DNA of 64,000 nt from Tribonema minus. Taxonomy: Eukaryota > Sar > Xanthophyceae > Tribonematales > Tribonemataceae. Made by a program: the position numbers and the translations under genes. The notes under the pieces are model-generated. The model had not been told where the DNA came from and searched no databases. It was given only the letters and a program-made list of their open reading frames with translations. The stretch is taken from positions 62,001 to 126,000 of the forward strand of contig JAFCMP010000547.1 of assembly GCA_017506865.1 (NCBI GenBank), read 5' to 3'. Below are positions 8,861 to 57,900 of the stretch, one piece after another; positions within the stretch are counted from its first letter, which is position 1; each line of letters starts with the position of its first letter.

Positions 8861-8898
<38 letters not shown>

Positions 8899-35200: not shown

Positions 35201-38200
35201 ACAGTACAGCGGTGAACTCTATGTGGACTGGGCGACCGCGCCAGTCATGACCGATCACTGCGGAGTTAAAAAACGGCACACATGCCTGTGGGACATGCCT
35301 GGATGTCTAAAGTTTGCTATTTTTCTCGCTTTACGGCTACTTGCTGCGTTATCCTCCGTTGGCATCCTCGCCGACAGAGATCATGAATGGCTACTTCCCA
35401 CGTACTCAGATCGCTGAGCACTGACTCTCTCTGGGTCCCAAAAAGGGCCTTTCTGTCCACTACTTGTTTAGAAATGCCGACCTTGGTGTTGGGCGAAGCG
35501 CTCTGGGGTCCTGTCAGAGGTGCAAGTCATGACATTTCTAGTTGGTGGTTTAGGAAACAAAGAAACACAAGAAGTTGTGCAAGCTGGAGGACTTGCCAGG
35601 GAGCACGGCACACTGCAAACGTGAGCGCACCGATGCTCACGAGCAGAGTTGAGAGTAGGGTAAGGTGTAGAGCGGGGGCGCTTGTCGTCAATTGATAAAA
35701 TGATCGTGTCATGTGAACATGTTGGCACTGGGCCGCGCTTGCTCCTGGGCGTGTGAGGAATGGCAGTGCACCGGCTAGCATGAACTGGGGGCTGAGCATC
35801 ACCCACTTAAATTCTTTGAGAGAGTGGCACAGCTGCGCTGTCTCATTACCCACGGCACAGAGGAGCTACTGTGAAGGGCAATTAAAACACGCGTGGAGCT
35901 CACAATGAGCAGCGCTACCTGACCATGCAGCGTACGAGCCGCAAGTGCCAGCGAAGCGGCTTCTGGTTGAGCGCAACATTGACCCAATAAACTTGAAGTT
36001 ATACACTTGAAGTTGTATACTTGATTAGTCTTAAGGGAGGTTCTGGCTTACCTGCTTGAGGTGGTAGTTGTGCCCCATGTACTGCATGCGCACAGAAGGC
36101 AACACACCAGCAGGCAAAAGGGTCAGCGTCGGTGCATGTGTGATGGGCGACGCGTCGGACACACGTAGTAGGTGCGTCGGCACATACATACTTCAAGATG
36201 AAGTACATCCTTCAGTATGCACCTGGTGATTGAGAGGCGCACAAATGCAGCACATGTCTCGCGCTTGCCTTGCCACAAAAAAATGGACACTGATACCAGC
36301 CTCAGCGTTCCGCAGAAGCTGCTGGCTGTTCATTGGCGTGAATGCAGCGGCGCGTGACGTCGCAGGCAGCAGCCTGGCTACTGGGTTAGGGTTAGCGTTA
36401 GGGTTAGGGCTGCTCTCACTCACCGAAATAGTGGGGAAATCAGCCTTCTGGGAGCACAGGTCGGACTCGATGTAGGCCATCTCAAAGGCATGGCCGCTTG
36501 ATATGGCAGTCAGGTCACTGAACAGGCACGCGCCGGGCTTGACAATGCTTATCGTGTTGGCGCACACAGGGCTGGCGAGGACCACCTGTGCAGCAGCGCA
36601 TAGAAGGGGAAGGGGAAGGAGGGAGCAGGGGAGGGGTAAATGCGTGTGTGTGTTGTTGGTGCGCAAGAAAGGGGAAGGGGAAGGAGGGGGGCAGACTGGT
36701 CAATGGGTGTGTTGCTGGTGCGCAAAAAAGGGGAAGGGGGAGGAGGGGGTAGACTGGTCATCAATGTGCATGTTGCTGGTGTGTGGAGTTGGTGCAAACC
36801 TGGCACCACAGCCTGCGCCGCACCACAGCCGGCGCCGTGTCAAGATTGGTGTGGAGGGGGTAGAGGGAAAGTGGGATGCCACACCAAATATCAAACCGTA
36901 TTAGCGGTTCATGAGATGCGACTTTGGAGCACAGCCACGTGTTCTATTGTGGCCAGCCTTGAACTCGACATATTCAGACACGACGGTTGTGTACACGCTG
37001 TGATGGCACAGGGCTTTCGTTTCTATCCCGTATACATGTGCTGCGACGCCCCAGATTTGAGGCCCGCAAGGCGTTGGTCACGGCACTCAAAGCCTGCACG
37101 CGTCTGTTGCACACCTACAGGATATCATTGAAGGAGTAGGCTACGTGCATGTATGCTGTACGTCAGCTCTGAATTATGTGTGCACGCATTCATTGCAAAT
37201 TGCTTCAAAAGCGTGACTATATTCACCTCAGGCTTCTGACAGCAGCCGACGAGAGATTTGTGGGTGACCATGCGTCTTCAACTTCCCACGAGCTCAAAAC
37301 CCTCAGTGTCAACAGGCATTATCATGGACACCCGGGATTGACTGCTGCGCAGTCACACAACCCCAGCCCTGAACCCTAGCCCTGGCCCTGACCTGACCTA
37401 ACCCCAAATCCTTCTTACATCCTGACCATAACTGGCAACGCTCAGCTGCCTCCTGTTTTCGCTCTCACTTCATGACGAGGATCGTCAGTGCAAGCAATAA
37501 GAGTCCCCAAAGTCGAGTGCTGCGCACCTACTGCTCTTGCTGATAGTAGCGCTCGTATGACATGTGCTTTGATTCGCAGGTGTTCTTGCTGGACTTCGGT
37601 GACATGGACCAAGTATATGTCATTCAATTGGGTTAATATAAAGGCAGGTTTGCAAGAATTTCTTGCTGGAATTCAGTGACATGGACCAAATATATGCCAT
37701 TCAATTGGATCGATGTAATACTATGTAGGTATGCGCACCTCGGCCGTGATGATGTTGATGGGGCTCTGGCGCGAGTCCGCCATATTGACTTGAGTGACAT
37801 GGACCAAGTATATGTCATTCGATTGGATTGATGTACGTACTACTAGGCATACGCACCTCGGCTGTGTTGATGTTGGTGGGGCTAGCCTAGCGCGAGTCCG
37901 CCGTGCTCTCGCTGGACTTCAGTGACGAGGACCAAGTAATATACAGTATGTGTCTTTCAATTGGATTGATGCATGTTACAGTATGTAGGCATACGCACCT
38001 CGGCTGTGATAATGTTGATGGGGCTCCGCCTAGACGAATATGCTACTGTAGCCCCTGGGCTCTAATGTATAGTACAAGTCTTTCAATTGGATGTATGCAT
38101 GTTACAGTATGTGGGCATACGCACCTCGGCCGTGATGATGTTGATGGGGCTCTGGCGCGACTCCGCCGTGTTCTTGCACTTGACGCCGGCGAGGTTGCCC

Positions 38201-40958
38201 CACTGGTCGGGGGGGTACTTGTTGTTGCCCGACTGCCAGTGGCATGGATCAGACACAGCACGCACACGCACATCAGGCACTGGCACCGCGGCGCTGAAGT
38301 ACCTTTGGAGACACCTCTGGCAACACGTAGCGGATGCAGAGCTACTTGAAAAATCCACAGCACTTCAAGTTGAGGTCGAGTCCTGGCTCTGACTCGGTGG
38401 CACTCCTTAAGTATTGATATATGTATTTACCAATTGGACAGTGTTGCGGCATTGAATATGTGCACCGTAGTCGAGAGGGTGGCATGCCATCAGAGAGTTC
38501 CAGGTACCACGGCTTCCTATATGATGTCTCACATAGGTGCTTGTATGCAACTTCATATTTGCAGCTCTTCAGACTCTTCTGGCTCCGACTGGCTGAAGGC
38601 AAGCCTGAAGTACTGACAGAGACACCTCTGGCAACACACAGCGGATGCCGAGCTCTCGGTAAATGACTTTAAAAAGAAATCCTTCAGGAATGGCGCATCG
38701 CGCGCTCGACAAACCGCAGGTCCTGGTTGAACAGTGTATATGGGCGAGGTGCATGCTTGAAGTTAAGGTGTTGTCACCCTGAACATGCAATTTGACAAAA
38801 CATGCCATTTGACGAACATCAATTTGCAGCACTTCAAACACCGTTAGGTTTGTGTGTGCGCAGGGGTGTCGTAGCAGGGAAAGATCGGGTTCGCACGCGT
38901 GCCTCATGCGCGTCTGTGAGTGATGAGCAAAAAAGGCATATGTTGATGTTTTTGTACTTCAACGTGAAGAAGGACGGCAGCCGCTTCAAGCTTGAATTTC
39001 TTCAAGCTTACAGTTCTCACCGGGTTCAACACGTAGCACAGCGTGTTGTAGGTCCAGGGGCTATCCACCACTGAAGTGCACCTGTCATATCAAAATTTGC
39101 AACGCAGCAGCACAATTTAATGACTGTGGGTGTCAGACGCTTATTGCTAGCAGCAGACTAGCCCCTATGCCGTCGAGGTATGCAGGGTGGGCTGCAGAAA
39201 TGATACTTCAAGTAGTTGAACTTCAAGAAGAAGTTGAAAAGGTCACGCGGGTGGAGCAATGCGCAAGCGCCAGCACACAAGCTTACGTGTGTTGTTGGCT
39301 GCCGTGTCACTACACTACCACATGCACATATGTATGTACAGGCATACAGGCAAGTACACGTGCGCGCGCACAATACAAACGCACGCGCGCGCCACGCCTA
39401 CTCAAAATACACACATTTACACTCCAGATACATGCAACGTATACATACATGCACACATACATTACATACAGATGTACCCTCACTCAAGTACACAAGTATG
39501 TGTTGCAACGTAGAGAGCTGTTGCTCACTGCGCTGTTGCACCACACCCGCAGAGCTGGACATCAAGGTGACAAATGCAAGAGGAGACCGACGCCAGTCAT
39601 GTGCTGCTAGAAGTGAATATATTGTAGTCTGGCTATCGGCAAGTTTAACTGCCGTAACCGTCAAGCGCGCAAGCGGCAATGAGCATGTAAAAGCCATATG
39701 TTCCAACAGTATGCACCATATACACATGCATGGATGCACATGGCGTATGCGTGTGTGTTGCACCAGCATAGCTATGGAATGTCATATGGCAGGGTAGGGC
39801 AGTGCTCAGGTGTGGTGACATTAGGGTTAGGGTTAGGGTTAGGTACCTGTCAGCAGCGTTCAACACCAGCAGCGAGCGCTGGTGCTGCTCGGCCAGTGTC
39901 GCCTCCCCTTGTGCGTTGACATCAGCGGAACCACGCAGCTTCTACAGCAGCCAGCAACAGCACGGCAGCAAACGAACAAAGCTCGGTCAGTGCACCTGCT
40001 GGCGCAAAAGTTTCAATCAGTGCAACGGGTGGTGCAACACGTGGTTTTGTGCATCTCAGAAGCACCTTGAGGCATGATATGGGTAATCTGCCTGCCTTGC
40101 GCAGTGCCTTCCGATCAGCCTGCCTTGCAGGCACTGCAACCAATGTGCACACTCAAGGGGTACGACGCCGCGTGGCCGCTCAGCCAGCGGCGCATGCTTG
40201 GGCCTCCAAATGTACAAGTTCGACACTTCATGTTGATCATCTGGTCGTTTTGCGCTTTTGCCAATTACAGCTGCCAGGTCCGAAATTCTTTATGCCAGCA
40301 TGGACACTACGGAGCTGGTACAGCTACAACGGTTATCATTCGAACCCATTCGGGCCTTCACAAAATCATGAGGACAAGTCATCGGGCATACTGCCATGTG
40401 TGACGAAGCCAGCAGTGAAGGCGTTGGGGTTTGCAGGGCGAAGACAAAGTTACTGCGTTTAGTCTGGGGCTCCTTTGGAGCCTTAAGTGTTGCAAGACGA
40501 CCCTCTGTGTGAAAAAAATTGCTGAAAAGGCTGCCACCTGTTAAAGCGGCAAGCCTGTCACCTGCTGATATACAGCTGTTGATACCTAGACATTCCGCAT
40601 TCCTGTAGCACGAAATCCACACGAAAAGGGACCAGTGCACTTCATGCAGGATGACACCTCAACTAGCACTGCTCTGTCTCTTTTGCTGCATGCACCTACG
40701 TAAGCCGTCACTGCACTGCCAACTGGATCTTCGCGTCGCCAGCTCAGTCATTGTACGGTCTGCACCCCATTACACGGCGACTGGATAATACTTGCAGCAA
40801 GAAAGAATTTGCTGCCGCAGCCTGCAGGTCTGCTCAACTTCGCAGTACATGATCATGGAGGCACTCACCGCACTGTCGTGGGCCACAGCCGCTTGCGAAC
40901 TGAGCAGCAGGATAGCCAGAGCGGAGACCACACGCAGGGACCTGGATCCGAGAGGCAT
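32279..40958 (-). CDS. Secreted alpha-carbonic anhydrase, 8 exons
   Basis: It catalyses CO2 + H2O to bicarbonate and, in algae, typically serves carbon supply outside the cell or in an endomembrane space. Exons on minus: 40869-40958, 38125-38232, 36424-36585, 36052-36081, 35016-35162, 33979-34154, 33501-33567 and 32279-32368 (TAG). Lengths sum to 870, giving 289 residues, and every junction closes in phase. Exon 1 is a classic signal peptide (basic start, VVSALAILLLSSQAAVA, then HDSA). Family marks appear in order: QSPINI, SGHAFEMAY, IHFHSVSEHT (two zinc histidines), ETHLVH (third zinc histidine), YYTYEGSLTTPGCSE (substrate-pocket threonines), VSIQ..., NNRPTQPLNGR. Exon 4 is only 30 bases. 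The splice from exon 1 to exon 2 closes in phase but is the least certain. Exon 2, 3, 5 and 8 borders are surrounded by tandem repeats described separately. Confidence 0.93.
32411..33230. repeat. Tandem array of about 117-bp units with 350-bp higher-order period, in the last intron of carbonic anhydrase
   Basis: The phrase TCGGTTGAGAACTGCTGC recurs at 32411, 32512, 32629, 32747, 32862, 32979, 33097 and (TTGG variant) 33213. Steps are 101, 117, 118, 115, 117, 118 and 116 bases. Units are of three types, and the three-unit block 32512-32861 is repeated almost identically as 32862-33211. The recent amplification step was therefore a 350-bp triplet. Frames through it are open on both strands only because the repeat has few stops; I call it non-coding. 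Confidence 0.95.
34680..34856 (-). repeat. Degenerate telomere-type (CCCTAA)n tract
   Basis: Repeated CCCTMAAC/CCTAAACC-like units (for example CCTGACCTAAACC, CGAACCCTAATTG) lie in the intron between carbonic anhydrase exons 6 and 5, next to the copied exon-5 edges. Confidence 0.65.
34777..35045 (-). repeat. Three copies of the 3' edge of carbonic anhydrase exon 5
   Basis: The functional edge is near 35011-35050 (CTCACCTCGGCGGGGGCAGC, GATCAGCGCGCCC). Diverged copies lie near 34868-34925 and 34777-34815 (GGCAGCGAGCA.YGCGCCCTCGA). The nearer copy keeps a donor-like CTCAC; the farther keeps only the exon-derived part. Confidence 0.75.
36384..36412 (+). repeat. Interstitial (TTAGGG)n, 8 bases inside a carbonic anhydrase intron
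   Basis: GGGTTAGGGTTAGCGTTAGGGTTAGGG stands just downstream (on minus) of the exon-3 donor at 36423. Confidence 0.88.
36600..36790. repeat. G-rich tandem repeat, about 65-bp unit, three copies
   Basis: Units of AAGGGGAAGGRGG..AGACTGGTCA.. GTGTTGCTGGTG lie directly upstream (on minus) of the exon-3 acceptor of carbonic anhydrase. On minus they supply a strong pyrimidine tract. Confidence 0.8.
37362..37412 (-). repeat. Degenerate telomere-type tract
   Basis: CCCAGCCCTGAACCCTAG and CCCTGACCTGACCTAACCCC resemble decayed (CCCTAA)n, in the intron between carbonic anhydrase exons 3 and 2. Confidence 0.6.
37560..38170 (-). repeat. Tandem array of about 120-bp units, each carrying the 3' edge and donor of carbonic anhydrase exon 2
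   Basis: The functional exon edge plus donor (plus-strand CGCACCTCGGCCGTGATGAT, then TTGATGGGGCTCTGGCGCGA) at 38121-38168 recurs at 37736-37783 (almost perfect), 37854-37903 and 37997-38032. Between copies, a second phrase (GACATGGACCAAGTATATGT then CATTCAATTGGAT) recurs near 37601, 37679, 37796, 37925 and 38070. All exon copies retain GAG|GTGCGTA- or GAG|GTGCG-type donors. Confidence 0.92.
38297..38660. repeat. Dispersed 40-bp duplicate upstream of carbonic anhydrase exon 2
   Basis: GAGACACCTCTGGCAACAC followed by GTAGCGGATGCAGAGCT at about 38307-38343 recurs at about 38618-38655 with few changes. Confidence 0.75.
39819..39842 (+). repeat. Interstitial telomere-type repeat, four TTAGGG units
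   Basis: A perfect ATTAGGGTTAGGGTTAGGG run continues into TTAGGTACC, in the first intron of carbonic anhydrase. Confidence 0.92.
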
Positions 40959-42029
40959 CTTGAGGACTTGTTGCAGAAGTAGGCTCGGGCTCGGCTACGG
41001 TGGAGTGAGTGAGGAGACTTTGAAAGCAGACATGAGAAGCAATCGATCCCGCAGCGCACACCTGGAAGCGACAGCAGTTTTTCATGGTGGATGAACGCTT
41101 TGCCGCGGTGGGACCGTGATGTCGCATGACGCCAAGGCAAGCACACACACCGAGCTCTCCAAGCACCGAAAGGCCGGTTTGACGCCTCGCTTGGGGATGC
41201 ATCAAGGAATGTATACGCAGAGAACACTGGGGTCGTGCTCATCGAGGATGAAACAAATGCTCCACATCGCAAGCGCCAGCCCCGATCCATCGCGGATCCG
41301 CAAAAAGTCGTTACAAGTGGAAACCGCCCAAACCTCCTCCAAAAAGTTTTATTTTCCACCTCACCCCACGTCAAAGGTTTGAATTTCCCACTTTAGTGCC
41401 AGTTTGACGCAAGCAGCCAGAGTAAAGTCTCGTGCATCCAGGAATAAGTATGGTCATCTTGAGTTGTGGTGACAGTGAGATGTGCGTCAACGGCTCAAAC
41501 ACTACAAATTGTTAGGTTAGTGCAGGGTCAGGGCAGTGCAGACTAGCTGCGTACTACATCATTAATAGTATCAGAAGTAAACCTAGGCATGCATTTATAA
41601 AACACGTGGCCTCCCTTGGGGCCTTCATCAATAAATTCCAGTCCACAAGTCTTGGCCATTTGCAACGCAGAGCACATGTGTACAAGTGACGTCCAGGTCA
41701 CATCAGTGCGCCACGACGATGCCGACGGACAAGTGCAATACGCCAACATGTATGTACAAGCAGAAACTGTACATAAAGTTCACACACCAATGTCAAGAGC
41801 AGGCTTTGATAAGCCATGTGCCAATATGCAATACGCAGGCGATCTGCACAGCAGCCTTGCATGGAACGCCGTGCCAAACAGCTGATAGGCAACGACACAT
41901 GCGCATGTAGAAGGCACCAGGTTTTCTGAAACCAGTTGCTGGCAATCCGCAAGCAGCAATTTTGCTATGCACGCAACGCCCTGACACAACATCAATCGCA
42001 GTGTATGCGCCTGCGTGCAGCAGTTGTAT
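40959..42029. other. Spacer upstream of carbonic anhydrase and downstream of the RABL6 gene
   Basis: It should contain the carbonic anhydrase promoter and the RABL6-like 3' UTR. A short minus-strand frame ending at 41543 (CGLEFIDEGPKGGHVFYKC, TINDVVRS) has a protein-like look but no partner exons. It may be a relic. Confidence 0.4.
41543..41700 (-). pseudogene. Possible relic exon, unknown origin
   Basis: From about 41700 the minus frame reads TWTSLVHMCSALQMAKTCGL, then EFIDEGPKGGHVFYKCMPRF, and ends at a TAG at 41543. The composition is unlike the flanking repeats and looks like true protein sequence. No start, acceptor or upstream exon was found in the small gap to the RABL6-like gene, so a fragment of a lost gene or mobile element is more likely than a functional gene. 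Confidence 0.22.
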
Positions 42030-45000
42030 TTATGTAGCGCCGGGCCGGTCTTTTTTTCTGCTCGTCTTCTTCTTCTCTTTTTTGTGTCTATGCTGTGTTT
42101 CTTCTGCTGGTGCCATGTCTCGTGCGATCGCCAGTGCCGCATCGATCGCGCGCCGAGCAGCAGCGCTCAGATCGGCGGCACTCTCACCGCCGCCGCCGCT
42201 GCCGCCGCCGCCGCTGCCATTGACGCTGCCGCTGCCGCCGCGGTCATCGCCGCCTGTGTCGCGGCCGCCGTTGGTGCTGCGATGGCCGCCGCCGCCGCCT
42301 CTGTCTGTATCACTATCATGCACGTCCACTGGTGAGTGCTGTGCAGGCTTGACTACCACCGCCTCGAATTCACTATCACTACTGGCAATGCGATGCCGTA
42401 TCGCTGGTCGGTCAGAGGCAGTGCCCTTCGCATCGCCAGCTGCCGCAGTGTGGCCTTCACCACTGTCGGGAAGCGGGCTGACGTAGGCGCCGCTGCCAAC
42501 GCCGCCACTAGCACCGCCTTCATCGCCGCTACCACCGTCATCATCACTAAAGAAATCGTCAGCGATGCCAGATGCGAGTTCCGGTGGCGCAAAGGCGTCC
42601 AGCACAGCTATCTCCCCCGCCACCACCGGCGCTGCGTGCGGTGGTGCTGCTGCCTTGGCCACAGGCGGCAGGCTGTCTGCATCGCTCAGACTGTCATCGG
42701 AGTCAAGCAGCACCACCGGCAAAGGCGCCGCGGCGGCAATCGGTTCGCTGTCATCTGCCGCCGCTGCAGGCTCGTGCTCACTCACATCCGGCGTCAGCAA
42801 CGGCTGCGCAGGGGGCTTGCCGCTGCCACGCCCTCGGAGCGATGACTCGCCCGCATCGTCGTCACCACTACAGTGCTCAGCAGGTGCGGCAACAACACTT
42901 GCACTTGCACTTGCGCTAGGTGCGACTGCGTGAGGTTCCGCCCGTTGCTGAGCCGCTGTGACCTCGATGCCGTCGGCGGCGACGCCCTGCGCCGACGCGT
43001 CTGGGTCGTGAGTTTCATTCGCGGCTGCTGCGGGTGCTGGTGGCGGCAGTGCGCGTTCGCTGAGGCGTGCTGCGCCATCGGGGTCGCCCGCCGCCGCATG
43101 CCGCTGCTGCTCATTGTCATCATCTGCTGCTGCGCCAGCTCCCGCCGTGGGAACCCCCACATCCCCCGCTGCGTCCGGCGTGCCTGTGACTTGCGTGGCA
43201 CGTGTGTACGCCGTGTCCGCCGCGCCGCCTTCGATTACAGCTGTGCCGAGCTCAGCAGGCAAGGGCGAGGCTGTAACCGCAGCAGCAGCAGCAGCAGCAG
43301 CCGTAGCGGCAGCAGCAGCGTCGTGCTGCGAAGGCGCCACCGGCACATCACCAACGTCAGCTCTAGCATGAGCGTCGCTGCTGCCGCTGCCAGTGTCGGC
43401 GCCGCCACCAGCGCCGCTGTTCCCGCCAATCCTGCCGTCGCTGCCGATGCCGTTTTCGCTGCCGCTTTCGCCGGTGCCACCGCCGCCATCGTCGTCACCG
43501 CTGCCATCATAGCCACTATCACGCGCTTCAGCTGGTGCTAATGACATAGCAGGCGTGTGGGCCCCGATAGCGGGCTCGCAAGCTGTATCATCCTGCACCG
43601 ACATGGTATGTTGCTCGCTGCGCTCGCGCCACTCAGCAGCAGCAGCAGCAGCGGTGGCGACGGCATCAGTGGTGGCAGCAAGCGTCGATGGCAGCGGCGA
43701 CTCAGCAGCAGAAGCAGCGGCGGCAGCGCCAGTGCTCTCTGCGTCCGACGCGCCTGCTGCCTCTGCTGTATCGGACGCTGATTGTGGCTCCTCTGCTGCC
43801 GCCGCCGCTGCTGCTGCTGCTGCAGGTCCTGGTTGCGCTGCTACAGTGTCGCTCAGTGTTGCCTCTGAATCGGCCGAATCTGATGCTGCTGCTGCTGCTG
43901 CTGCTACTGCCGCCGCTGCCGCCGCTACGTGTATTGCTTCGGCGTCCTCCATATGGGCCGCCGCTGCCGTGCGCACGGCTTCCGCTTCCGCCGCTTCATA
44001 TATGGCCTCCTCCAGCTTGGCCGCCTCCGCATCAGCCTCCGCTGCTGCCGCCGCCAGACTGCCATCGACGTCAGTGCTGCCGCCGCAGTGAGGGCCACTG
44101 GCGGCAGCAGCGCTTGGTGCAGCAGCATCATCGCTCAGGCCATCCTCCGCATCTCCTGCCGAGTCGCTGTTGTCGCGAGCTGCGTCCGCCGCTGCGTGAG
44201 GCGCTGCGCGAGGCGCTGCCGCAGAGAGCGCTGCTTCTGCTGCAGGCGGCTCATGCGCCCCTGCCGCAGCTGCAGCCTCCAGCGGCTCTGCCGCACCAGC
44301 AGCATCGCCAGCAGCAGCAGCAGCAGCAGCGCGACTCTCTCCCTTCGATGTTGCAAGGCCCTGGCCATCCGCGGCATCCAAGTCGCGATCGCTGATGTCC
44401 GCAGCGGCAGTGGTGCCAGCGTTGGCAGCGGTGGCGGCACTGGCGGCAGCAGCGGTGGCACCGGCGGCGGCGGCAGCGGCGGCAAAAGCAGCCGCCTCCA
44501 CAAGCGTCACCCGCTTGAGCTTTGTGAACGTCAGCGGCTCCTCGTCTGAGGAGTCGCTGTTGCTGGATTCCGCATAGCTGAGGCCCCTTCGCATGGAGCT
44601 CGCTCTGCTGGCAGCCTTGTCCGCAGTTTTGCCAGCGCTTTTGCCAGCGCTTCCGCCGGGACTGGCGCTGCGCGCGGCGCTCTGCGGCGAAGGCGCGCCG
44701 CTGCCGTGTTCGTCGTCTGACGTGTTGCGGTTGAAGAACTCTTCCAGTTCGCTGAGCGGCTGCAATGAGCACAGCAAGGGTTAGGGTTGGCCCGGCAACA
44801 AGACGGTATGTAGCGGGACATTAGAGACTATGCGTATGAGTCGTCAGCTTCAGCTTCTGCGCGCACGGGGGTCACATGCGCCCAGTAGGTCGTATCTGCT
44901 GCCTACACATGAGTGCTAAAATTCGCCCTTGCCGCCATGTAATCCTGCATCTACATCGCTCTGGCACGCATCGTGTCAAACTGCCTTCTGCGCAGATCTG

Positions 45001-48000
45001 TTGCATGATTGATGTCTGCTGAGGACTGCTGTCTGTTGAAGACTACCTCCGCTGCGATTGCGCAGCGCTAACGTGTGTATGTGCAGTGGCACCAAGCATG
45101 CTCTCAGGTCTCACAAAGAGCACGGCACAGCAGTGCTGGCCATCGCCTCCATGGCCTAAGTGTTGTTGTTGAGGCAAGCCTCGTGCAGCCCTGCGCAGGA
45201 TGCGCGCAGACTGCAGCATAAATGACATTACCATTTTCATCGCATCCCCAGTTTCTACCCTGCATGCAGATGATGAGCACCCAACTTCACTCACTTGAAC
45301 TTGCGGTTGACCCTCCGCTGGCTGCGGCTCCGACGCCATGGGCACTGCGGGCGAAGCTGCCGCGCCTGCTGCTGCAGCCGCCGGCGGTGCCTCTGGATGA
45401 GCCAAGGACTCCCCTGTTGAGATCCCATGGCTGCTGCCGCCTCTGCTTTTCTCTTTCCGCTTGTGCTTGTGCTTGTGGGCCTTCGTGGCGGCGCTCGCCG
45501 AGGCTGCAGCAGCGCTCAGGTCCTGCGCACACACGGTTGTGGACGGTGCTCAGCGCCTGAGCGATACGTCAACTGTTGCACCTGCAAGAGGCAGATTTCC
45601 ACATGGTGGTGGACAGCAGTTGCTGTATCTCTGGGGGTGAACAGCGTTGCACATCTAGGTGGCGCTTCAACTGACACACCTGTAAGAAGTGACTCTCCCT
45701 AGAGGATTTTTGGCAACGACACATCCGTTGCAGCATAATGGCCCGTCATCAGATAAGACTGCCACCATCAAAACTGACGATCACAGGGAGGTGCTCCATT
45801 GAGCATAGCCCATCGAGGCACTGCAGTTCTTGCAGCATCGCGGGATGCATGAGCTCTGGCATCTGCAGCAGGATGAAGTAATGCCACGTGAGGGCCTGCT
45901 TGAGGGCCGGTGTGATGTACTTCATACGAGTATACGCGTTTACATGCATCGACTACCAGATCCATGCTGTCACATCACAGCAGCTGCCAGTCCCCTCCCA
46001 GTGCGCCTCGACCTTGACCCACCGCGGCACCAGTGCCAAAGACTGTATGCTTGCAATACAAATGTGGCCGTAGTCCTCACTGACCTCGGAGTCCTTGCTG
46101 CCGCGGCGGTGCGCGCCGCTTCCGCTGCGCTGCTTCTTGTGCTTGCGGTGCTTCCTCTCCTTCCCCCGCTCCGCCTCATCGGCCTCCGCCGCCCCCGCTG
46201 ACACCTCATCTGAGCGCTGCTGCTGCTGCTGCTGCTGCTGCTGAGCGCTGCCATCACTTGAGCTGCGCTGCAGCGGCGCTGCCGCCGCCGCTGGCGATGC
46301 CGCTGCCGCTGCCGTAGCTGCCGCAGAGGGCCGCGTCATCACGTGACGCGGAGCAACCGCCGCCGCCGCCGCCGCTGCTGCTGCTGCCGGCGTCGCTGGC
46401 GGCGGCGGCGGCTGCGCGTGCGGCGGCAGCGCCAGCGAGGTGGCGCGGACGTGCGCGAGGTGCGTGGCGTAGTCGTGACCCGCTATGAGGGCGTCGACTT
46501 CGCGCTGCGTGCTCTGCACAGTGCGCGCGCGGCGAAGGGGGGCAAGCAGGGGGGGTACGTGAGCTTGGAAGGACGCTTCTGATAACAAACGAGATGAACT
46601 GGTTTGGTCTATCACATCGGCACAGATCGGTGATCCCTGATCAATTGTCGCGATGCAGAACAGACCAAAGCACCTACGGGTTAATAACAGCACTCTGTAT
46701 GGGCAAGCACTTCAAGCAAGAATCAGAGAGCTCGGACACATGCACGCAGCTGTTGCCACCGGGTGCTGTTTGCGTTACCATGACTGGCAATGAGGGTATG
46801 CAGCTTTGTATGTACAGTGTGCTGTATAATGCACGGATCAAAGGTCAAATGCACGACGAAAGCTCACGAGTTGTCTGTGCAATGGGCACAGGAAGTAGCC
46901 AGAAACCAGACCAGCACACAGAAAAGGATCACGAGCACGAGCCTGTGATAGACACACAACTAAACGTGCAGCCAAGGTGGCACCTGAGCTAGGCTTGCTG
47001 CCTCTGAGCTAGGCTTGCTGCCTCAGCAAGTTGTTCTCGACTTCTACTGTCTGTGACGCACCTGTGCTGACTCTGCAATGTCAAGTGCGTCTCACTCCGG
47101 TGCATTGCTCAACGCAGTTGATGTTGACACACTCAGCAGCAATGTCTGAAAACTCCGGGTCATCTCCAACCGCTGCTACCTGTTCATTAGATGAAGCCGC
47201 ATGAATAATAGAAGTAACAAAGATCCGTTGCTTTCATGTATGCGTATACCTATGCACATGAAATGTACTTCAAGTATGCATACTTCAACAGTCAGTTGGT
47301 GGGCACACCTGCAAGTCGCGCTCCAGGATCTGCAGCTGTTGCTGCACCACCGCCCGCTTCAGCTGCAGGAACGGCACATTGAGGTACTGGTACAGCACCT
47401 GCACATAGCACAGGGTTAGGGTAAGGGTTAGGGTTACAAAAGCATGCGGCCTGTCAGTGACATTGAGGTACTGATACAGCACCTGCGCACAGCAAAGGTT
47501 ACAACAGCATGCGACCTGTCAGTGGGCTACGCCGTGTTTCAACACTGCTGACACCGCAGCAGTGCTCAATGCTGCTGACACCGTACCGTGTCTGTTCTCA
47601 TGCCCGCCGCATCATGGAACACGGCGTGAGGACAACAGTGGGTGCTAGATTCATAGAGGACCCAAGCCCCCGCTGCCACACATACATGCTGTCGCTACAG
47701 CAAACTGTGCTACAAATTGATGACACCTTTCACAGCTCGTTAGAAGGGCGCCAGACCCCTCCGTCACAGCATTTCAAACTTGTAACCGCCCACACGTAAT
47801 TGTTCCAAAACTGTCACGGTCCTCCATCTGTAACGACCATCCTGCTGCAGCAGGAGGCGATACTCGGACCGTTACCTACTCGCTCATTTACGAGTCACTC
47901 GTTGACGTGACGCCGCCACCTGACTCAACGACTCGCTCGCTCACTCACTCACCCGCAGCCCGAAGCAGTTGACCATGGAGCACGGGAACGCCACCGTGCG

Positions 48001-49931
48001 CCGCTCGCACCCGCGCGCGCTGTCCACCTCATTGCGCGCCTTCGCCACCGCCGCTACATCCTCCAGCGTCACCGCCGCTGCCGCCTCGCCACTGCTGTCG
48101 CCATCGCCGCCCCCGCCGCACACCCTGTCCCAGAAGTTCAGCAGCAGGACAATGGAGACGGTTCCAGGGACAGTTCCCAGGGATGCCGCGGCGTGCGCCA
48201 GGGACCGTTCCTCATATGGGTCCACCATGAAGATGACCACCTGCGCGCCCTGGTACACGTCGACCACGGTGGCGTCGAGCGCTGCCACCTTGCGCTGAAC
48301 GCTGCCCCCGCCGTCCATACGCACGGCGCTGCCTGGCGGCGGCGGCGCAAAGGTGTAATTCAGCAGCGCTTAGCACGGCGTGCAGGTGGAACATAAATGT
48401 TGATGAGAGGTGCCACCTTCCGCTGAACGCTGCCGCCGCCGTCCATGCGCACGGCATTGCCTGGCGGCGGCGGCGCAGCGGCCTAGTGGTAGCGCTCAGT
48501 GCACGACGGCGCAGTGGTGCAATTCAGCAACGCTCGGTGCAAAGTGCAAGTCGAACATGGCAGGTCGAGAGGTGCCACATTTGCTGAACGCTGCTGCGTC
48601 CATGCGTACGGCGCTGCCTGGCAGCAGCGGGGAGGGACGGCGCGGCGCGCGTGGTGCAGGTCAGCAGCGCTCATTTGCACGGATACATAGCGCAAGTGCC
48701 GGCAAGTGATAGGACACGGGCGGCATCGGCAGACAGAGCCCACTCACCAGAGCTCTGCAGCGTGACCACCGGGTCCCCCCTGTTGGCCGCAGCAGCGGCA
48801 GCAGCGCTCAGCATAGCGTGGTCCACCACGTCCCACACCTCCACCTTCACCACCTCATCGCTGCCTTTCGCCGCCCAGTTTATGGTGCCCGTCTGGATCT
48901 CCGGCGTCGGCGTGTACTGCGTTATTAAGGGGATTCGCGCGAAGAGAAGCGGCCGTGCAGGTCAGGAGCGCGCCTCGGGGCGGTGCGTGGTGATGAGCAG
49001 TTGCACTCACTTTGAAGGTGAAGTGTATAAAGTAGTTTGATTGTAAACTTTAACAAAAGTGGAACAGGGTGGTCGTCCCGATTGCACGAAGTAAGTCACA
49101 CATGACTCAACGCAACACAGAAATGCACCCTTTTCTTCAAAAGTAAAGGAAACAAACACTCGTGCTGCGGTGAACACGCTCCTATCGCATTCCCTGAATG
49201 GAGCTTGTCTGTTGTGCAAAAAGCGCAAGTAGGAGAGTCACCTCTGGTCTGAAGTCCCAAACACATGAATAAACAACTGCAGTAGTGGTAATGACGAGTC
49301 TCGTTGTTGACAGTCCATTTCATGACAAAGACTCATGCTTCGGTGAGCATGCTGCTGTTAACGTAACTCCAAGGGTTGGTGGTAGTCGGTGCGTGCAGAA
49401 ATAAGGCATGGGTAGGAGAGTCACCTCCGGTCTGAAGCGCAAGTCCTGCAGGCGCGACCACAGCGCCGTTTTGCCTGTGCCCCGCTCGCCTCGGATCAGT
49501 ATCTTCATGTTGTAGTCTGCGCCGCCGCCGCGCAGCTTCCGCCTGCAGGCGCACAGAGCGACAAGCAGTTTTGAAAGCACGGCACACCAAGGCATACCTC
49601 AGAGATTTTATTTTTTCATAAACAACTTTAAAACATGAAAACCAAGAGGTGCTGGTGAATGGCAGTGGCCTGTTTGCCAACATCGCGGCGAACTTCACCT
49701 GCTGTACTTGGGCTGCAGCGCAACCTATAAATCCTGCCGACGTGCAAAGTTGCCTGACCGAGTCTCTGCCATCCTGAATATTTGAAACCAAGATATTCAG
49801 CATTTTCTAATTTTTTTATGCATACGGGCATGTCGTGGTCCATGTACCGCGGCGCTTTCTGCAGCCACTGTTCCTGTGCGTCGGAACCAAGAATGTTGAA
49901 GCATGTCGGCTCACCTCATGATGGAACCCAT
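42030..49931 (-). CDS. RABL6: Rab-like GTPase 6 (RABL6/PARF) homologue, 8 exons
   Basis: This is a Ras-superfamily GTPase of the RABL6 type, with a GTPase head and a long disordered tail. Exons on minus: 49915-49931, 49425-49542, 48748-48916, 47953-48332, 47309-47398, 46085-46513, 45295-45522 and 42030-44759 (TAA). They sum to 4161 bases, 1386 residues, and all phases close. An ATG three codons further up (49940) is also in frame. Diagnostic marks: [19 protein letters not shown] with the P-loop at about residues 24-31; [24 protein letters not shown] (family form of the DxxG motif); NFWD in place of a canonical NKx[20 protein letters not shown], matching the end of the GTPase fold. The tail has Lys/His-rich blocks ([17 protein letters not shown]), LSELEEFF and a 910-codon last exon of alternating acidic, Ser and Ala runs with a basic C-terminus. 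The tail is longer than in animals; its Ala runs are coded by (GCA/GCT)n. Confidence 0.92.
44776..44790 (+). repeat. Short telomere-type repeat at the acceptor of RABL6 exon 8
   Basis: AAGGGTTAGGGTTGG lies about 20 bases upstream (on minus) of the exon-8 acceptor at 44760, where it reads CCAACCCTAACCCTT and forms part of the pyrimidine tract. Confidence 0.8.
46984..47023. repeat. Perfect 20-bp tandem duplication
   Basis: CTGAGCTAGGCTTGCTGCCT occurs twice in direct succession in the intron between RABL6 exons 6 and 5. Confidence 0.92.
47378..47525. repeat. Duplication of the RABL6 exon-5 5' edge with a telomeric tract in one copy
   Basis: Copy 1 (47378-47459) and copy 2 (47461-47525) share CATTGAGGTACTGRTACAGC, ACCTGC and GGTTACAAMAGCATGCGRCC. 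Copy 1 contains GGGTTAGGGTAAGGGTTAGGG between these parts; copy 2 has only AAAGG. Copy 1 supplies the functional acceptor (TATGTGCAG|GTGCTG); copy 2 has an intact alternative acceptor (GCGCAG|GTGCTG). Confidence 0.9.
48290..48640 (-). repeat. Three copies of the 5' edge of RABL6 exon 4
   Basis: The functional edge near 48290-48345 (plus strand CGCTGAACGCTGCC, CCGTCCATACGCACGGCGCT, GCCTGGCGGCGG) recurs near 48420-48478 and, more diverged, near 48585-48635. Each copy keeps the plus-strand GCCTGG, that is CCAG|GC on minus, the acceptor itself. Confidence 0.85.
49150..49440 (-). repeat. Duplication of the RABL6 exon-2 3' edge and downstream intron
   Basis: The block around 49322-49437 (plus strand TGCTTCGGTGAGCATGCT ... 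GTAGGAGAGTCACCTCCGGT, CTGAAG) recurs around 49155-49253 (TGCTGCGGTGAACACGCT ... GTAGGAGAGTCACCTCTGGT, CTGAAG). The donor GAG|GTGACTCTCC is kept in both as (A/G)GAG|GTGACTCTCC. Confidence 0.82.
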
Positions 49932-49940
49932 TTTTTGCAT

Positions 49941-51971
49941 TTGAGGGCCCCGTTCGGGGGTTGTCGCCTCGCTGGCCACGTCATCGATGGAGGGACTGCC
50001 CGCGCCCTCGCTTCCAGCTGCATTGCCCATGGCTTGCCACCTTGTCGCTCGCTCGCTCTCCTGGCTAGCACGTAGTATCCTGATACTTGATGTGCTGCTG
50101 GTGCTGCAGTCAAGTGGCGCAGGCCAGGACGCCGGAGGTGACTCTTCCTACCCCGGATTGCCTTGCGACATGATGCACCACTGCATCCTCTGCCTAAGCA
50201 AGTACTTGCGTGAATCTAGAGCTCCACAAACTTCCACCAACTTCAAATTTCATGAGAGGTCTCGTACTCAGACTCGAGGCAGCATTGATGTGAGTCTGAC
50301 AGAAGGGTCTTGCTTTCTTCTTGCTGCATCACGGTACGCATGAAAATGTTGGTATTCGCTCTGTTAAACACGTTGATAAACGAAGCAGCCATGTGCTATA
50401 ATTCAACGAGTACTCCAGTAGGTGAGTCTGAGAAGTCTACAACGCATCCAAGGCCATGTTGAGAACGAACAGCTTTTAAGGAAACAGATTTTCTTTTCAA
50501 TCACGACGCAGTAATGATTGTCGGTAACGTGCTCTGTGCAGTCAGGCTGGCAACCTTCTACGCAACGCCCAAACAAAGACAGGCATTACACGTGAAAGCA
50601 GAGCGGCAGGAAGGCCAAGCCTTGTAGCTTGGGTTGTGGTAGGGCCACAGCAGTAGCGCTTGCGATGACAGGGACTAGGAGACTGCATGGGTTCGTGGCG
50701 CTTTACTTCAAGTTAGGGCATGAACTTCCTGCTGGACCCCTGACTTACATGCCATATTTCGACACACATGTCACATTCCAGTTGGCGAAGCAGCGCGCAC
50801 GTGAGCACGTAGAGAAGCAAGCGCGAGCAGACAGTTGAACTAGATCAGCACAGAGAATGTGCAGATGCGTCTCAGGATGAGTGCACCGAATGTCATGTTT
50901 GTGTGATCCGTTGTCAGCAGCTCACGGGCACAGCGTGCCGTGTGCAAAGCGCTGCTGCACTCCCTCTGTGTTGCACAGCTGCAACTGTGTGCAGCAGGTT
51001 GGTACGCTTTCCCTATTTCCCCTAAACATCAACTTGAAGATGGTGCCATCGAGGCACGTCACTTAATTGTCACCACTGTGCCGGCCGAGGACGCACTACA
51101 AGATCAAACCCTCCTGTCGGCCTCCTTCGAGAGACAAGTATCCAAAAAAGCAAGCAACCGCCCCCTCTAGGGGCAGGGCAACCCCAACAGCCCCAAGGGG
51201 TGTGTCACCAACACTAAGAAGGGGGCTCTAAACGGGTAGGGATGAGGGGGCTGCATAAGGCGCACTTAAAGAGACATCTGCGGAGGATGCTGGCGGGCAT
51301 GTGCTGCCTGCCGCCGCTGCCGCTGTACCTTGTGCGCACCGCAGTTACGCAGCAGTGCTCAAGCTCGTGTGTGTACAAAATGCGGCCAGCGGCAGTGGGC
51401 GCTGCATCAGTCTGGACAACAGACAGGCCTAGCAACTGGCGCAGCAGCACCAATATGACCGTGGACGCCGTCGCCGCTGACGCAGCACCAGCGGCTGGTG
51501 CAGCAGTAGCATGATGCCCCTGGAAGCTGCTGCTGCTGCAGCAACAGCCGCTGCTGCCTTAACAGCCACTGCTTGCGCAGCAGCAGCGCTCAGGTCAACA
51601 CTGACAGCTCCGTACGGCGCCACAGCATCGACGGCTTCACGTACAGCTGGTCGGCATGACGGGTTGCAAACACCACGCTGCAGCACTGACGAAGTGCACC
51701 AATAGCACTGCCAGCGGTGAACCAGCTCAAAGCTGCTGTGCTCAGAGCTCACGAGCAGCTGTTGCAGCACCGCCGAGCCGAACCAGCGGCAGTGCGCAAG
51801 CAGCAGCGGCGGCGGCGGCAGCAGCAGCGGCGGCGGCAGCAGCAGCAGCAGCGGCGGCGGCAGCAGCAGCAGCGGTTGCAGCAGTGGCCGCACCCGCCGC
51901 GGCGGCAGAAGCAGCAGCAGCGGGTGCAGCAGCAGCAGCAGCAGCAGGCCACCGCAGCCTTGCGCCCAGCG
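49941..51971. other. Spacer between RABL6 start and SLC33A1 stop
   Basis: It should hold the RABL6 promoter. A plus-strand frame ending near 50838 (GHELPAGPLTYMPYFDTHVT) looks faintly protein-like but stands alone. Near 51770-51960 the sequence is a (GCA)n/(GGC)n tract, described separately. Confidence 0.4.
51770..51960. repeat. (GCA)n/(GGC)n compound trinucleotide tract downstream of the SLC33A1 stop
   Basis: Alternating GCAGCA and GGCGGC runs lie just past the stop codon (on minus). Open frames of polyalanine or polyglutamine type on both strands are products of the repeat. Confidence 0.88.
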
Positions 51972-54900
51972 CTATGTGACCTTGGCGACATCGCGCCCCG
52001 GCGCAATGTGCCACTCTGACTGCTTGAGCCCCTGCAGCTTGACCACGGCGCGCCAGCACAGCACGAGCCACACGACGCCCGCCACCACGCACGCTTGCAC
52101 CTGCAGCGCGCACACGCAGCGGAGCGATGCTGTGATGCTGAGCGCTGGGGTCATTGCGCTGTCGTGATGAGCGCTGCTTTGGGTGCATACATTCAAAATT
52201 CAAACGCTTTTGTACAGCAAGCATGCTTGAACACCCCAGCGTACTCGCAGCGTCTTCGCACCTGGACGTTGTAGCCGTCCCGCACCACCACGCAGTGCCC
52301 CCCCAGCTTTGCGCACGCCTCGCTGGTCTCGTGAGCGGTGCACAGCGCATCAAATGCCCCTCCATCAAGCACCGTCCCCCCCGTTTCGCCAAGGGGAAAA
52401 CACCGCCGCTCCGTGAGCGAGTCCATCAGATACAGGCTCAGAGAGTTGGGCCTGTCAAGGGGTGAAGAAACACATCGGGGAAAAGATGTGGAGTCTGCAG
52501 GTGTACTGAAGCTGTGCGCTAGACGCGGCAATGCCTTGATGCGTGAAATCTACAAGGCAAGATTTCAATAGGTTTGGTAATTCAAAGCTTGAAGTCGTTT
52601 CCTTAAGTGAGCCATCAAATACAGGCTCAGCGAGTTGGGCCTGCCAGACGTGAAGAAAGACATCGGATGTGTAATGATTCAATGAGCCTGCCAAAGTGTG
52701 GCATATCGTAGGAAGATCCTAGAAGTACTGCGGATATCTGCCGAGTGCTGTGCTTCTGGTAGGTTCACTGAGGCTGTGCGCTGGACGCAGCGATGCTCTC
52801 TTGTGCAAAATCCACAGAGCGGGATATGAATGGAATCACAAGGCTCAGAGCCCATGGCTTAGAGTAGTCGTGTCCCAGTATGTCAACCCAGATGCATCAA
52901 GCAGCGGATTCTTTTATACTTCAACACCTGGGGAAGAGCAATTATTGAAGACTTGCATCGCACACAGATCTTGAACCATGGATTGACAACTTGAAGTTGT
53001 GAAAGTTCTTGGTGGGCGCATGCAGGCGCAGTCATGCAGCGCCATACACTTCAACTACAAGCTGACTATGGTGCACGATGTCAAAATGATGAACACACAT
53101 GCCTGGCAGGACGCGACTTCTTGAAGTACCCCACGTTACCACCATGAGTGGAATCATGCACATGGCGAAAGGCGAACCTAGTACCACTACCTGCTCCTAT
53201 GACAAACATACAACACCATACTTCAAATAACATACATGCGTACCACTCACTCACTGACTCACTGACTCACTGACCCACTCACCACTTGGTCCCCAGGTTC
53301 GACACCGTGTTGAGCAGCGTCATGTACGTCCCTACCATATACATACATACGCAGCACGACTCACTCACTCACTCACTCACTCACTGACTCACTCACCACT
53401 TGGTCCCGAGGTTCGACACCGTGTTGAGCAGCGTCATGTACGTCCCGCCAATTGCGGGGTCGCTCACGCGCGCAAAGAACGCCATCATGCTCACGTACAT
53501 GAAGTTGGAGGCAACTTCGTGCAGCACCACCGCCCCCCCCAGCGCCGCGTAGAACGTCCCCCTGTCCCCTGTTTGGGGGGGCACCGCGTACACGGCGCGC
53601 GCCAGGGGGAGCACTGCTGCGTACACGAGCGTCACCGCGATGCGCAGCGGGTAGCCCGCGAGAAAGACACTGAGGGGCTTGGGCCCTGCGGTGAGGCGGC
53701 CCACGGCTACGGGGATCAGCATGCCGAGCGCCACCAGCAGGGGGGACATGAGGGCCAGCTCCTGTGGTTGGGGGGGGGGGGGGGGGGTAGCGTAGGGTTA
53801 GGGTTTAGGGCTTAGGGTTAGGGTTTAGGCATCGTCATCAGCACTGGTGGCTGGTTGCGGAACGTGTACCGACATCACCGTTGAAGTATTAGGTATGCAA
53901 CATGAACTGAAGAACAAGTGGGTACTTCCAACCCCCGCGGTGAGGCACGTTGCCGAAGCGCGGATCAGCATGCCGAGCGCCACCAGGAGGGGGACATGAG
54001 GGCCAGCTCCTGCTGTGTTGTCACGGGCAGGTAGCGGGTCGGCGACATCATGAGCAATGGTGGCTTGCATGGGAATCTAAGCCTACTGTGTATCAGCACG
54101 CATGAGCTTTGTGAGACGAGCACAGCAGTCGCAATGTCAAGTTTAAAGCACTTGAAGATACCTGTCTTACAGTCAGTCATGAGTGACCAACCTTTAGGCT
54201 TGTCAAACCGAGAGTGCTCATTGGTTTGACGTGCCTGAAGAGGCATGCTCGTCACCTTACTGGCTTGCAAGACACTTGTTGGAGCACGCCCTCCCCTCCC
54301 TCCTTCGCTCCTCCCACACAACCTGTCGCCGCTGCATGTAAATATGAGGCCAGTACTCCAAATCCAACGCACACAGGCTAACCTTAGTGGTGTTCACAAC
54401 CGGCAAGTCTTTGTATTCTAGAACAGACCAGAAAAAGACGTACACAAGCTCACCTCGGGGTAGGAGGGGTAGGGGTAGATTTAGGATTAGATTAGTGTTT
54501 GAACCGTACACAAGCTCACCTCCTTGGGCATACCAAACTCCACGAGCTTGAGGCTGGTGGCGGCGTCCGTGACGGCAAAGGCCACCTTGCACGTCAGCAG
54601 CAGCCCGCACAGCAGCTGCACCGACGGCAGTCGTATGCAGCGCCCCAACTGACGGTACGTCTGTCGCAGATGCGGGTGCGGAGGGTCGGAGGTCAGCGGC
54701 AGGTGCCATCACCATCACACGGCTCAGCACACGGCTCGCGTCATGGGTATGTGGTTCAGAGGGCGTTCGATCGCGCGTGAGGAGGCCCTGCTGCGTTTAA
54801 CATCAATCAACAGGCGGCACGAGCAGAATTGAAACGAATAATGCAGCTGGCGGTATTTCTGTCGCAGTTGCGGGTGCGGAGGGCTAGACGTCAGCAGCAA

Positions 54901-57900
54901 GTGGTGTTAGCATGATGGGCACTGGAGTACGCATGCGACAGTGGCGCAAGGTAGCAGGAAAGACCGCAAATCTCTCATACAAACCCTGGCATCAGAGGCG
55001 CAAGCAAGGCAGCCGGGAATGACTGCTGCTTCGTAAGCAAGCTGTAAGATCTGCCCTAGCTAGCGCCAACTGGCGATTCAATTATGTCTATCGCAATCGC
55101 AAGAAGGCGAGATGTCAGAAACAGCAGGCTGTGTCGCCAACACATAGCTCATGTCACGGGTGGTGAAGTGCGAAGGGCGTAAGCGCGCATCTAGAAGTGC
55201 CAGCAGCAGTTGCAGTGTAGCCAATCAACGGCATGCGTGGTATCAACCAGGACAGGTACATGGTCTTCTCGGTGGAGCAGCAACTTCAACCTCACTTCAA
55301 TCGACTCACTCCAAGAAGTCGAAGGGCTTGCGCGCGCAGTTAGAAGCGCCGGCAGCAGTTGCAGTGTAGCCAACCGGTGGCATAAGCGGTTTTTAACCGG
55401 CACACAAGGGCAGCTTCTCGGTAGAGCAGCAACTTCAACTTTACTTCAACCAGTGACTCGCCTCAAATAGCCCCTCCACCTCCACCTCGCTCTCATCGTG
55501 CCGCTCCTTCCGGCAGAACCTGAGCAGTGGCAGCAGCGTAAAAACTGCATGAGACTGTTGAACCGGTACGCATTGCCATGACGAGCACTGCGATTGCTGT
55601 GAGTTGCAATGATAGCTGTCGTACCACTGGTATGTATTGCCACTACGAGCATTGCAGTTGCCTGTTGAGGATACATACAGTGCACACAGGCATCTTGCCT
55701 TCATGATATACATTGTTCAACTCTGTCACACAAGCATCCAGCTGTACCTACATACCACAAATCTCTTGGCCCTTCTTCAGCCTAGCACGCCATACACACA
55801 TACGTCGATGTACATGAGCTGACTGACACGCGCCTCACCGCCGTAACACAAAGCCTCTGTTGTATGCCAGTGCCGAATTCCCCATCCATCAGCACCAGCG
55901 TGCACACATGCTTTAAGAAGCACATGCAAACATACCATATATTTCCGTAGACATATACGGAGGAGGATGAGATATTCCGGAGGTACGCAAGTAAACACAA
56001 TCGCCACATAGGTGCATGAACTTATCAATGCACTGAAATCACATGTACATGCTTTGAAGTACAAGTAGCACGCACAACGGTAATGCATACAAGTAAACAC
56101 ACCATATATACATACATACCCCCAAACCAGAAAATCTCACCAGACGTACAGCGTCGTTGCCAGAAACACCATTGCCCAGAACACCAGGAAACTCGGCAGC
56201 ATCACTATGCGCACATCGGACGCAGTCACGATGATGCAAAGAAACAGGTAAACATGCCATACCATACACATGCCCCGACCTCACTCACCATACGTGTAGC
56301 GTCGTTGCCCGACACACAATAGCCCAGAACACCAGGAAACTCAGTGGCGTCACAATGCCCACATCGGATGCAGTGGACACCGGTAATCACACCATACATA
56401 CATACATACCACTGACCAAACTCACCAGACGTAGAGCGTTGTTGCCAGAAACACAATCGCCCAGAATACCAGGAAACTCGGCAGCGTCACAATGCCCACA
56501 TCTGACGCAGCCCCCGGCGCCCTGAAGTAGCGGTTACAGACCCCCGGGTCGTTGAGTGCGAGAAATCCCACGTGCGCCAGAAAGAAGCCCAGCGTCTGCC
56601 CGAGGCTGTTACACGTTGAGGCGTAGCCGACGTTCTCCCTGCTGAGCATCGTGAGCGCCCAGCCGTCGACGGCAATGTCCTGAACAAGGCACGGGGAGCA
56701 TCACGCGGTGAATCCACAAATTGGTTAGTACTACATACTGCACAAGCTGTATACATTGACACATACGGATTGTATATACGTGTAGCGTGCAACAAGTACT
56801 TGAAAGCAGTGTCTGCGACAGTGGTGTCTCTTACGCATCAAGGCGTCACCGACGTTTTCCCTGCTGAGCATTGTGAGGGCCCAGCCAACGACGGCGATGT
56901 CCTGAACAAGGCACGGGAAGCGTCAAGCGGCGAATCCATAGAGTTATTATTACTGCACAAGCCGCAGACGTTTACATATACGGATTGTACGTGACAGTGG
57001 TGTCTGTTGCAGTGGAGGCTGTTACACGTGGAGGCGTAACTGACGTTCTCCCTGCTGAGCATCGTCAGGGCCCAGCCGTCGGCAGCAATGTCCTGCACGC
57101 GGGAGGCATCAGCCGGGGAATCCACAGAGTTATTGTTGCTGCAGAAGTTGTATACATCGAGATGTTGTGAGTTGGAGTGGAAATGAGCGCCGCTTGCGGT
57201 GAATGCAGCATAGGACACAAGAGTATGGGAGGAGAGCTCCGGCATGTCAGTGTCCAAAAGAGCCTGCTTGACCCTGAGGGTGAGAATCGTGCAGCGTTGC
57301 CCCCCGCAGTTCTGTGATCATCAGAGCGTTCTCGCTATTTCATGTGGGTGTGCCTTGTGACGTAGTGTCCATTGTGCAAGTGTTGCAGGGGTGAATAGGT
57401 TGACATTAGCATTGGCTCTGGTTCCGACGAATGCGGCACAGGGCAAACAGTATGGGAGGAAAGCAGCAGCATGTCAGTGTACACAATAACGTGCCTGAAT
57501 CTGGCGAGAATCGAGCACAACGTTGCCCCCAGGCTAGGGCAGTTTCACGCCATTTCCAGGGCCAGGGCCAAGAGCAGGAATAGCTGCTGAATGCCAAGAC
57601 AACTTTCACTGTACAACGAACAGCCTCTCGCGTGGTGCACACGGTCACCAGAGAAACTCAGCAAACAGCCTCCCTCAACAAACACAAAACAGATCTCCCA
57701 CCTGCGTGGCCATCATGGCGTACAGCGTGAGGAAGTACGCCGTCAGGGCGGTTACGTCGGGCGCAACCGCCACCCCCCCGGGGCCATCGCCCATCCACCC
57801 GGAAATGTAGGGCGCACCCCCCAGCATCATGAGTCCACAGAGCATCTGCACCGGCACCAGCCACGACTTCCGGCGGCCAAAGGGCTTGTAGTAGAGGGAG

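Follow-up and report, generated by a model that had tools for sequence, protein, structure and literature searches.

Why do the introns of three genes in the alga Tribonema minus contain repeated copies of the edges of their own exons, complete with splice sites? The question is raised by 64,000 nucleotides (nt) of contig JAFCMP010000547.1 (the window; positions 62,001 to 126,000 of the forward strand), taken from an assembly of 158.2 Mb in 554 contigs. The light-harvesting family PF00504 accounts for 92 exon matches in the genome, which points to a photosynthetic alga. A sequence-only reading of the window had described such copies in an SLC33A1, a RABL6-like and a carbonic anhydrase gene and had taken exon edges to be what is copied. 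We find that the copies are real, widespread in the genome and above chance. The account we favour, at a probability of about 0.82, is that local tandem duplication is frequent and is tolerated at exon borders since the surplus edge turns intronic.

The three genes lie on the minus strand and all three models are partial. SLC33A1 (acetyl-CoA transporter 1; 51972..57980) is represented without its 5' part by seven exons, 2 to 8 in the numbering of the sequence-only reading (57702-57980, 56426-56679, 55462-55519, 54520-54660, 53397-53761, 52262-52451 and 51972-52100), with a frame open to the stop codon. The RABL6-like small-GTPase gene (47309..50030) is counted from its ATG, has a frame open over five exons (49915-50030, 49425-49542, 48748-48916, 47953-48332 and 47309-47398) and continues past them. 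The carbonic anhydrase model comprises six exons and begins after the 5' exons. The predicted SLC33A1 protein matches Pfam Acatn (PF13000, 1.8e-107) and acetyl-CoA transporter structures in the PDB (3.9e-116), and the joined carbonic anhydrase exons match PF00194 (2.2e-30); these two identities are firmly assigned from sequence. The RABL6 name proposed for the third gene is not established, as its protein meets general Pfam profiles only (Roc, 5.4e-7; Ras, 2.9e-4). Each exon set forms a single open frame if the splice sites attached to the exons are used. From these frames, and not from RNA, we infer that the exon-attached site is probably the spliced one. The donor of SLC33A1 exon 4 (55462, minus strand) appears to be a GC donor (GAG/GCGAGT), and the frame is open with it.

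We defined a border copy as a direct repeat of at least 40 bits, at most 600 bp away, that reaches at least 8 bp into both exon and intron. Such copies accompany 10 of the 34 checked borders of the three genes (8 of 34 when at least 15 bp is required on each side), and they bear out nine of the ten exons that had been named as carrying copies, leaving SLC33A1 exon 4 as a borderline case. All features that follow are on the minus strand. In SLC33A1, the acceptor and start of exon 3 (56602..57160; parent 56602-56759) recur at about 56828-56961 and 57015-57160 (72-78% identical), and its end and donor (56089..56510; parent about 56383-56510) recur at about 56244-56373 and 56093-56225 (75-84%). 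Further copies accompany the exon 5 acceptor (54646..54903; parent 54646-54705, copy 54844-54903, 82%), the end and donor of exon 6 (53230..53446; parent 53341-53446, copy 53230-53332, 91%) and the exon 7 acceptor (52410..52666; parent 52410-52478, copy 52600-52666, 84%). The start of exon 6 is also copied (53710..54012; parent 53710-53764, copy 53959-54012; 55 nt, 94.5%); this copy extends only about 4 bp into the intron and is not counted as crossing the border. From the GC donor of exon 4 a 150-bp unit occurs twice (55165..55449, 77%). Its likeness to the exon edge was judged by eye only and stands outside the border-copy count.

The RABL6-like gene carries copies at the exon 2 donor (49229..49437; parent 49412-49437, copy 49229-49254; 26 nt, 96%), the exon 4 acceptor (48253..48630; parent 48253-48349, copies 48405-48477 at 90% and 48544-48630 at 76%) and the exon 5 acceptor (47376..47498; parent 47376-47414, copy 47460-47498, 90%). 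In the carbonic anhydrase gene two donors are affected, those of exons 38125-38293 and 35016-35162, which we took as exons 2 and 5 of the sequence-only reading; the latter exon lies outside the range 37560..57125 given there. The end and donor of exon 38125-38293 (37583..38177) are followed by three more copies, with start-to-start spacings of 118, 142 and 126 bp, and by a partial one at 37583-37641. The end and donor of exon 35016-35162 (34780..35053; parent 35002-35053) have one copy at 34866-34917 (86.5%), and a partial stretch at 34780-34809 is similar to that copy. The acceptor of exon 38125-38293 is uncertain, yet was counted among the checked borders, and shows no copy at our thresholds. 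A 50-nt repeat (38294-38343 and 38605-38654, 84%) has one copy ending at this acceptor, so that it duplicates the acceptor with hardly any of the exon.

The same kind of copying occurs in genes unrelated to the window finding. Two families were sampled across the genome, mitochondrial carriers (best 30 of 146 places) and DEAD helicases (best 30 of 36), and each exon region (the match plus 100 bp on either side) was compared with its own 1.5-kb flanks. Direct copies are present within the own flanks of 18 of these 60 independent conserved exons, inverted copies in those of none; two of the 18 (L013 and L015) come from a single cluster of tandem carrier genes. Comparing the exon regions with flanks from other loci gives 40 direct and 31 inverted matches in 3510 comparisons. 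An equal rate for own and unrelated introns, the outcome named in the sequence-only reading as telling against the copies, is clearly not what is seen (18/60 vs 40/3510).

For the pair totals, and for the border and decay counts below, four overlapping or tandem-paralogue loci (L013, L015, L018 and L028) were left out. Low-complexity pairs (trinucleotide entropy below 4) were removed from repeat counts. The remaining loci that overlap were merged only when pairs were counted, so that some flanking points in the border tests are counted twice. The 56 loci hold 159 unique direct pairs and 1 inverted pair in 172,115 unique bases, about 0.92 direct pairs per kb. At least one direct pair occurs in 42 of the 56 loci, and 152 of the 159 pairs have a shift of at most 600 bp. 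The window yields 47 direct rows and 5 inverted ones within 1.5 kb, two of the latter being self-palindromes. The copies described in the window are thus confirmed as direct, tandem-like, of mixed age, widespread and carrying an exon edge together with its splice site.

Are exon borders favoured by this process? One further locus (L058) yielded no exon, leaving 55 for the border counts. Local direct repeats cross 13 of 107 borders, 106 of 945 flanking non-coding points 60-150 bp away, 177 of 1562 at 150-300 bp and 257 of 3038 at 300-600 bp (540 of 5545 overall; 8-11% depending on distance). They cross only 30 of 2064 points in exon interiors. In the window genes 8 of 34 borders, 192 of 877 intron points and 3 of 116 exon-interior points are crossed. 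On the intron side repeat coverage has no peak at borders, ranging from 0.10 to 0.16 within 60 bp of them and from 0.11 to 0.19 at a distance of 100-400 bp. When one point 60-400 bp away was drawn per border (1000 draws, seven threshold settings), the main setting gave 13 borders against 11.1 +/- 1.9 expected, and 217 of 1000 draws reached 13. Borders are therefore favoured slightly at most, these counts give no clear sign that exon edges are targeted, and the proposal that they are what is copied is not supported. The depletion in exon interiors probably arises because duplication there alters the protein.

A process that targets or prefers splice junctions, such as transcription- or RNA-linked copying, would duplicate edges along with their splice sites, and several observations lean towards it and away from the account we favour. 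Borders exceed the resampled mean in all seven settings, mostly within the spread. Without an identity filter the loci give 13, 16, 11, 13 and 12 borders against 11.1, 12.6, 8.8, 10.9 and 10.2 expected (84-247 of 1000 draws), and the window gives 8, 10, 5, 8 and 6 of 30 against 4.9, 5.5, 4.0, 4.8 and 4.6 (12-369 of 1000). The strongest of these is the window at a reach of at least 8 bp (10 of 30 vs 5.5, 12/1000), to be read with the fact that the window was chosen for showing the pattern. With identity filters the excess grows, to 6 vs 4.0 (150/1000) and 10 vs 5.9 (21/1000) in the loci and to 4 vs 0.9 (6/1000) and 9 vs 1.8 (0/1000) in the window. Coverage on the exon side of donors (0.18-0.21) is above that in the intron. 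A simple home-made coding-plus-splice-site model, not RNA, supplied the exon edges of the 55 loci, and some flanking points may sit in unrecognised exons.

Exon-derived copies diverge more slowly, and identity filters favour them; this explains the direction of the border excess. A mild border preference is possible. Given the result at the main setting, and an intron-side coverage that is no lower 100-400 bp away than at the border itself, we regard a junction-directed mechanism as improbable.

The fate of the copies can be read from 26 borders, 16 of them in the loci and 10 in the window, which are crossed by 42 pairs in all. Over all pairs the exon part differs at 247 of 2187 positions and the intron part at 640 of 3512. 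When each border contributes a single pair, mismatches occur at 37/479, 42/488 and 81/476 of codon positions 1, 2 and 3 (0.077, 0.086 and 0.170) and at 449/2443 of intron positions (0.184). If the copy is neutral and the exon constrained, positions 1 and 2 should show half the intron value and position 3 about the full value. The ratios are 0.44 for positions 1 and 2 (95% 0.28-0.62; 0.5 expected) and 0.93 for position 3 (0.70-1.19). The copies decay as neutral DNA, in the way expected if constraint acts on the real exon alone. Within the power of the counts, the copies are not visibly maintained as exons or as splice sites.

Selection could instead keep the copies, whether to serve as alternative exons or as splice sites of a decoy or alternative kind. 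The splice dinucleotide is intact in 37 of 42 copies, which points this way; among the 39 with enough intron sequence it is intact in 35, compared with 32.8 expected under neutral decay, a small surplus. Codon positions 1 and 2 diverge as freely as those of a neutral copy would. Of the 42 copies, 17 would keep the frame, 38 would introduce a stop and a single one would add in-frame, stop-free sequence (two if alignment gaps are ignored). We therefore consider such selection very improbable, and the suggestion that copied sites feed alternative splicing, and through it new proteins, unlikely.

The age of the copies also bears on whether they could be false tandem copies made by misassembly of long reads. 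A few identical copies exist (81 nt at 100% in L044), as misassembly would produce. The middle 90% of pairs, however, are 70-94% identical, which is not something assemblers invent, and the neutral codon pattern over 26 borders also speaks against misassembly; an assembly artefact is thus extremely improbable. Young pairs are few, 20 of 169 at 90% identity or more and 6 of 169 at 95% or more (overlapping loci not merged). The mixed age reported for the window stands, whereas the claim that the process is continuing is borne out in part only, by those 20 pairs. Their scarcity may reflect a slower present rate, or near-identical copies that collapsed in the assembly.

A difference in unit number was found where the assembly holds two versions of one region (loci L062-L069; C90:757000-799499 and C179:145250-187559; about 38 kb aligned, 5-7% diverged). 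Divergence is 4.9% across 28,183 aligned bases, a total that includes overlapping pieces, and 6.8% across 9,850. The two versions are either uncollapsed haplotypes or a segmental duplication. Near C90:759837 an intron of 209 bp contains two units, each made of the exon edge and its donor; near C179:150252 the intron is 102 bp long and contains one such unit. The units lie head to tail and contiguous, and the joined exons give a 181-codon frame that is open in both versions, with 8 amino-acid differences. Other differences between the versions include a 40-bp tandem unit and copy-number changes in an array.

We propose the following course of events. Short-range, head-to-tail direct duplication of segments of about 50-250 bp would be frequent in non-coding DNA. 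Where a segment straddles an exon-intron border, its duplicate would bring along the donor or acceptor with the adjoining exon edge. The site attached to the exon (the first donor or the last acceptor) would stay in use, and the surplus copy would become intron, unconstrained and free to decay. Duplications within exons would be removed, because they change the protein. The direct orientation, the contiguous cases and the short units suggest slippage-like tandem duplication or unequal exchange as the mutational step.

Three observations fit this course less well. The two C90 units are 80% alike over 46 nt, below the 89% between the gene copies there, so that a loss in C179 is as likely as a gain in C90. 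Of the eight insertions of at least 12 bp that distinguish the two versions within their aligned pieces, two look tandem (24 and 18 bp) and six do not. Among 46 pairs that are at least 85% identical and have a spacer of at least 25 bp, 30 show homology of the spacer and 16 show none. These 16 make it probable that deletions, or template switching on occasion, contribute as well; purely interspersed copying is a minority possibility. Overall, the copies most likely arise neutrally, as a by-product of duplication that goes on generally in this genome and is filtered from exon interiors by selection. A further idea, which we hold tentatively and think somewhat unlikely, is that an unusually high duplication rate in this lineage sustains a reservoir of duplicated splice sites, at roughly one border in eight, lengthens introns stepwise and supplies raw material on a genome scale from which tandem duplication can lead to new introns and shifted exon edges.

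Two familiar sources of repeated intron or exon sequence were considered and set aside. Introner elements would recur across the genome; the SLC33A1 repeat region (1,016 bp, the sole region searched) matches one place in 158 Mb, and exon regions match the flanks of other loci in only 40 of 3510 pairs. Tandem or mutually exclusive exons would be constrained, whereas codon positions 1 and 2 stand at 0.44 of the intron value (unconstrained) and 1 of 42 copies is in frame and free of stops.

It is accepted that introns can be gained by tandem genomic duplication (the Rogers model; PMC3443670, in the portions available). The likeness lies in short tandem duplication beside AGGT-like sites. In that model an exonic AGGT segment is duplicated and an intron gained, whereas in T. 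minus the duplications fall on borders that already exist and make introns longer. Exonic segments with AGGT at both ends do not appear among our segments, which were chosen as border-straddling; purely exonic duplications were not searched for. The closest single case is the RdRp gene of potato, where, according to the available portions of PMC4974935, a tandem duplication across an intron-exon boundary made a new intron. As here, the duplicate spans an existing border with its splice signals and the surplus exon turns intronic. The potato case differs in being one recent event with RNA-seq support for the new intron, whereas in T. minus many borders are affected and the copies decay inside existing introns. 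Internal gene duplications are commonly observed, as cited in the same portions of PMC4974935.

Searches of open-access titles and abstract openings brought up no account of exon-edge duplication that is genome-wide or equally dense. Nor is it described in the available parts of an algal-splicing review (PMC12702839) or of a second Haematococcus genome paper (PMC10400597). The Haematococcus lacustris genome (available sections of PMC7617258) measures 151 Mb, with 10.37 exons per gene, an AACCCT telomere motif and a repeat content of 47.3%, and is alike in its tandemly arranged short repeats; exon edges and splice sites are not mentioned in those sections. Single cases of the mechanism are already known; what is new is its density. 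Gain of introns by tandem duplication has been documented mostly as individual cases. With a duplicated edge at 13 of 107 borders, T. minus offers many decaying intermediates of differing age, a dense natural record of the first step in duplication-driven intron change. From such intermediates one could measure how fast duplication, loss, cryptic splicing and intron growth proceed. They also carry a warning for annotation, since gene finders will meet several plausible copies of one exon edge.

The window contains other repeats. A tandem array at 32381-33267 repeats about every 118 bp, also shows periods of 235 and 350 bp, and lies downstream of the last placed carbonic anhydrase exon (33501-33567). 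Tandem repeats of 147-150 bp and an AGC-rich repeat occur at 8537-9039 and 51799-51947, the latter just past the SLC33A1 stop codon. Short interstitial telomere-type repeats (TTAGGG, plus strand, at least two units each) occur at 11059, 36398, 39821, 53812, 59379 and 63692; none appeared in 100 shuffles. All six have the same orientation, and those at 36398 and 53812 lie inside introns of the minus-strand genes.

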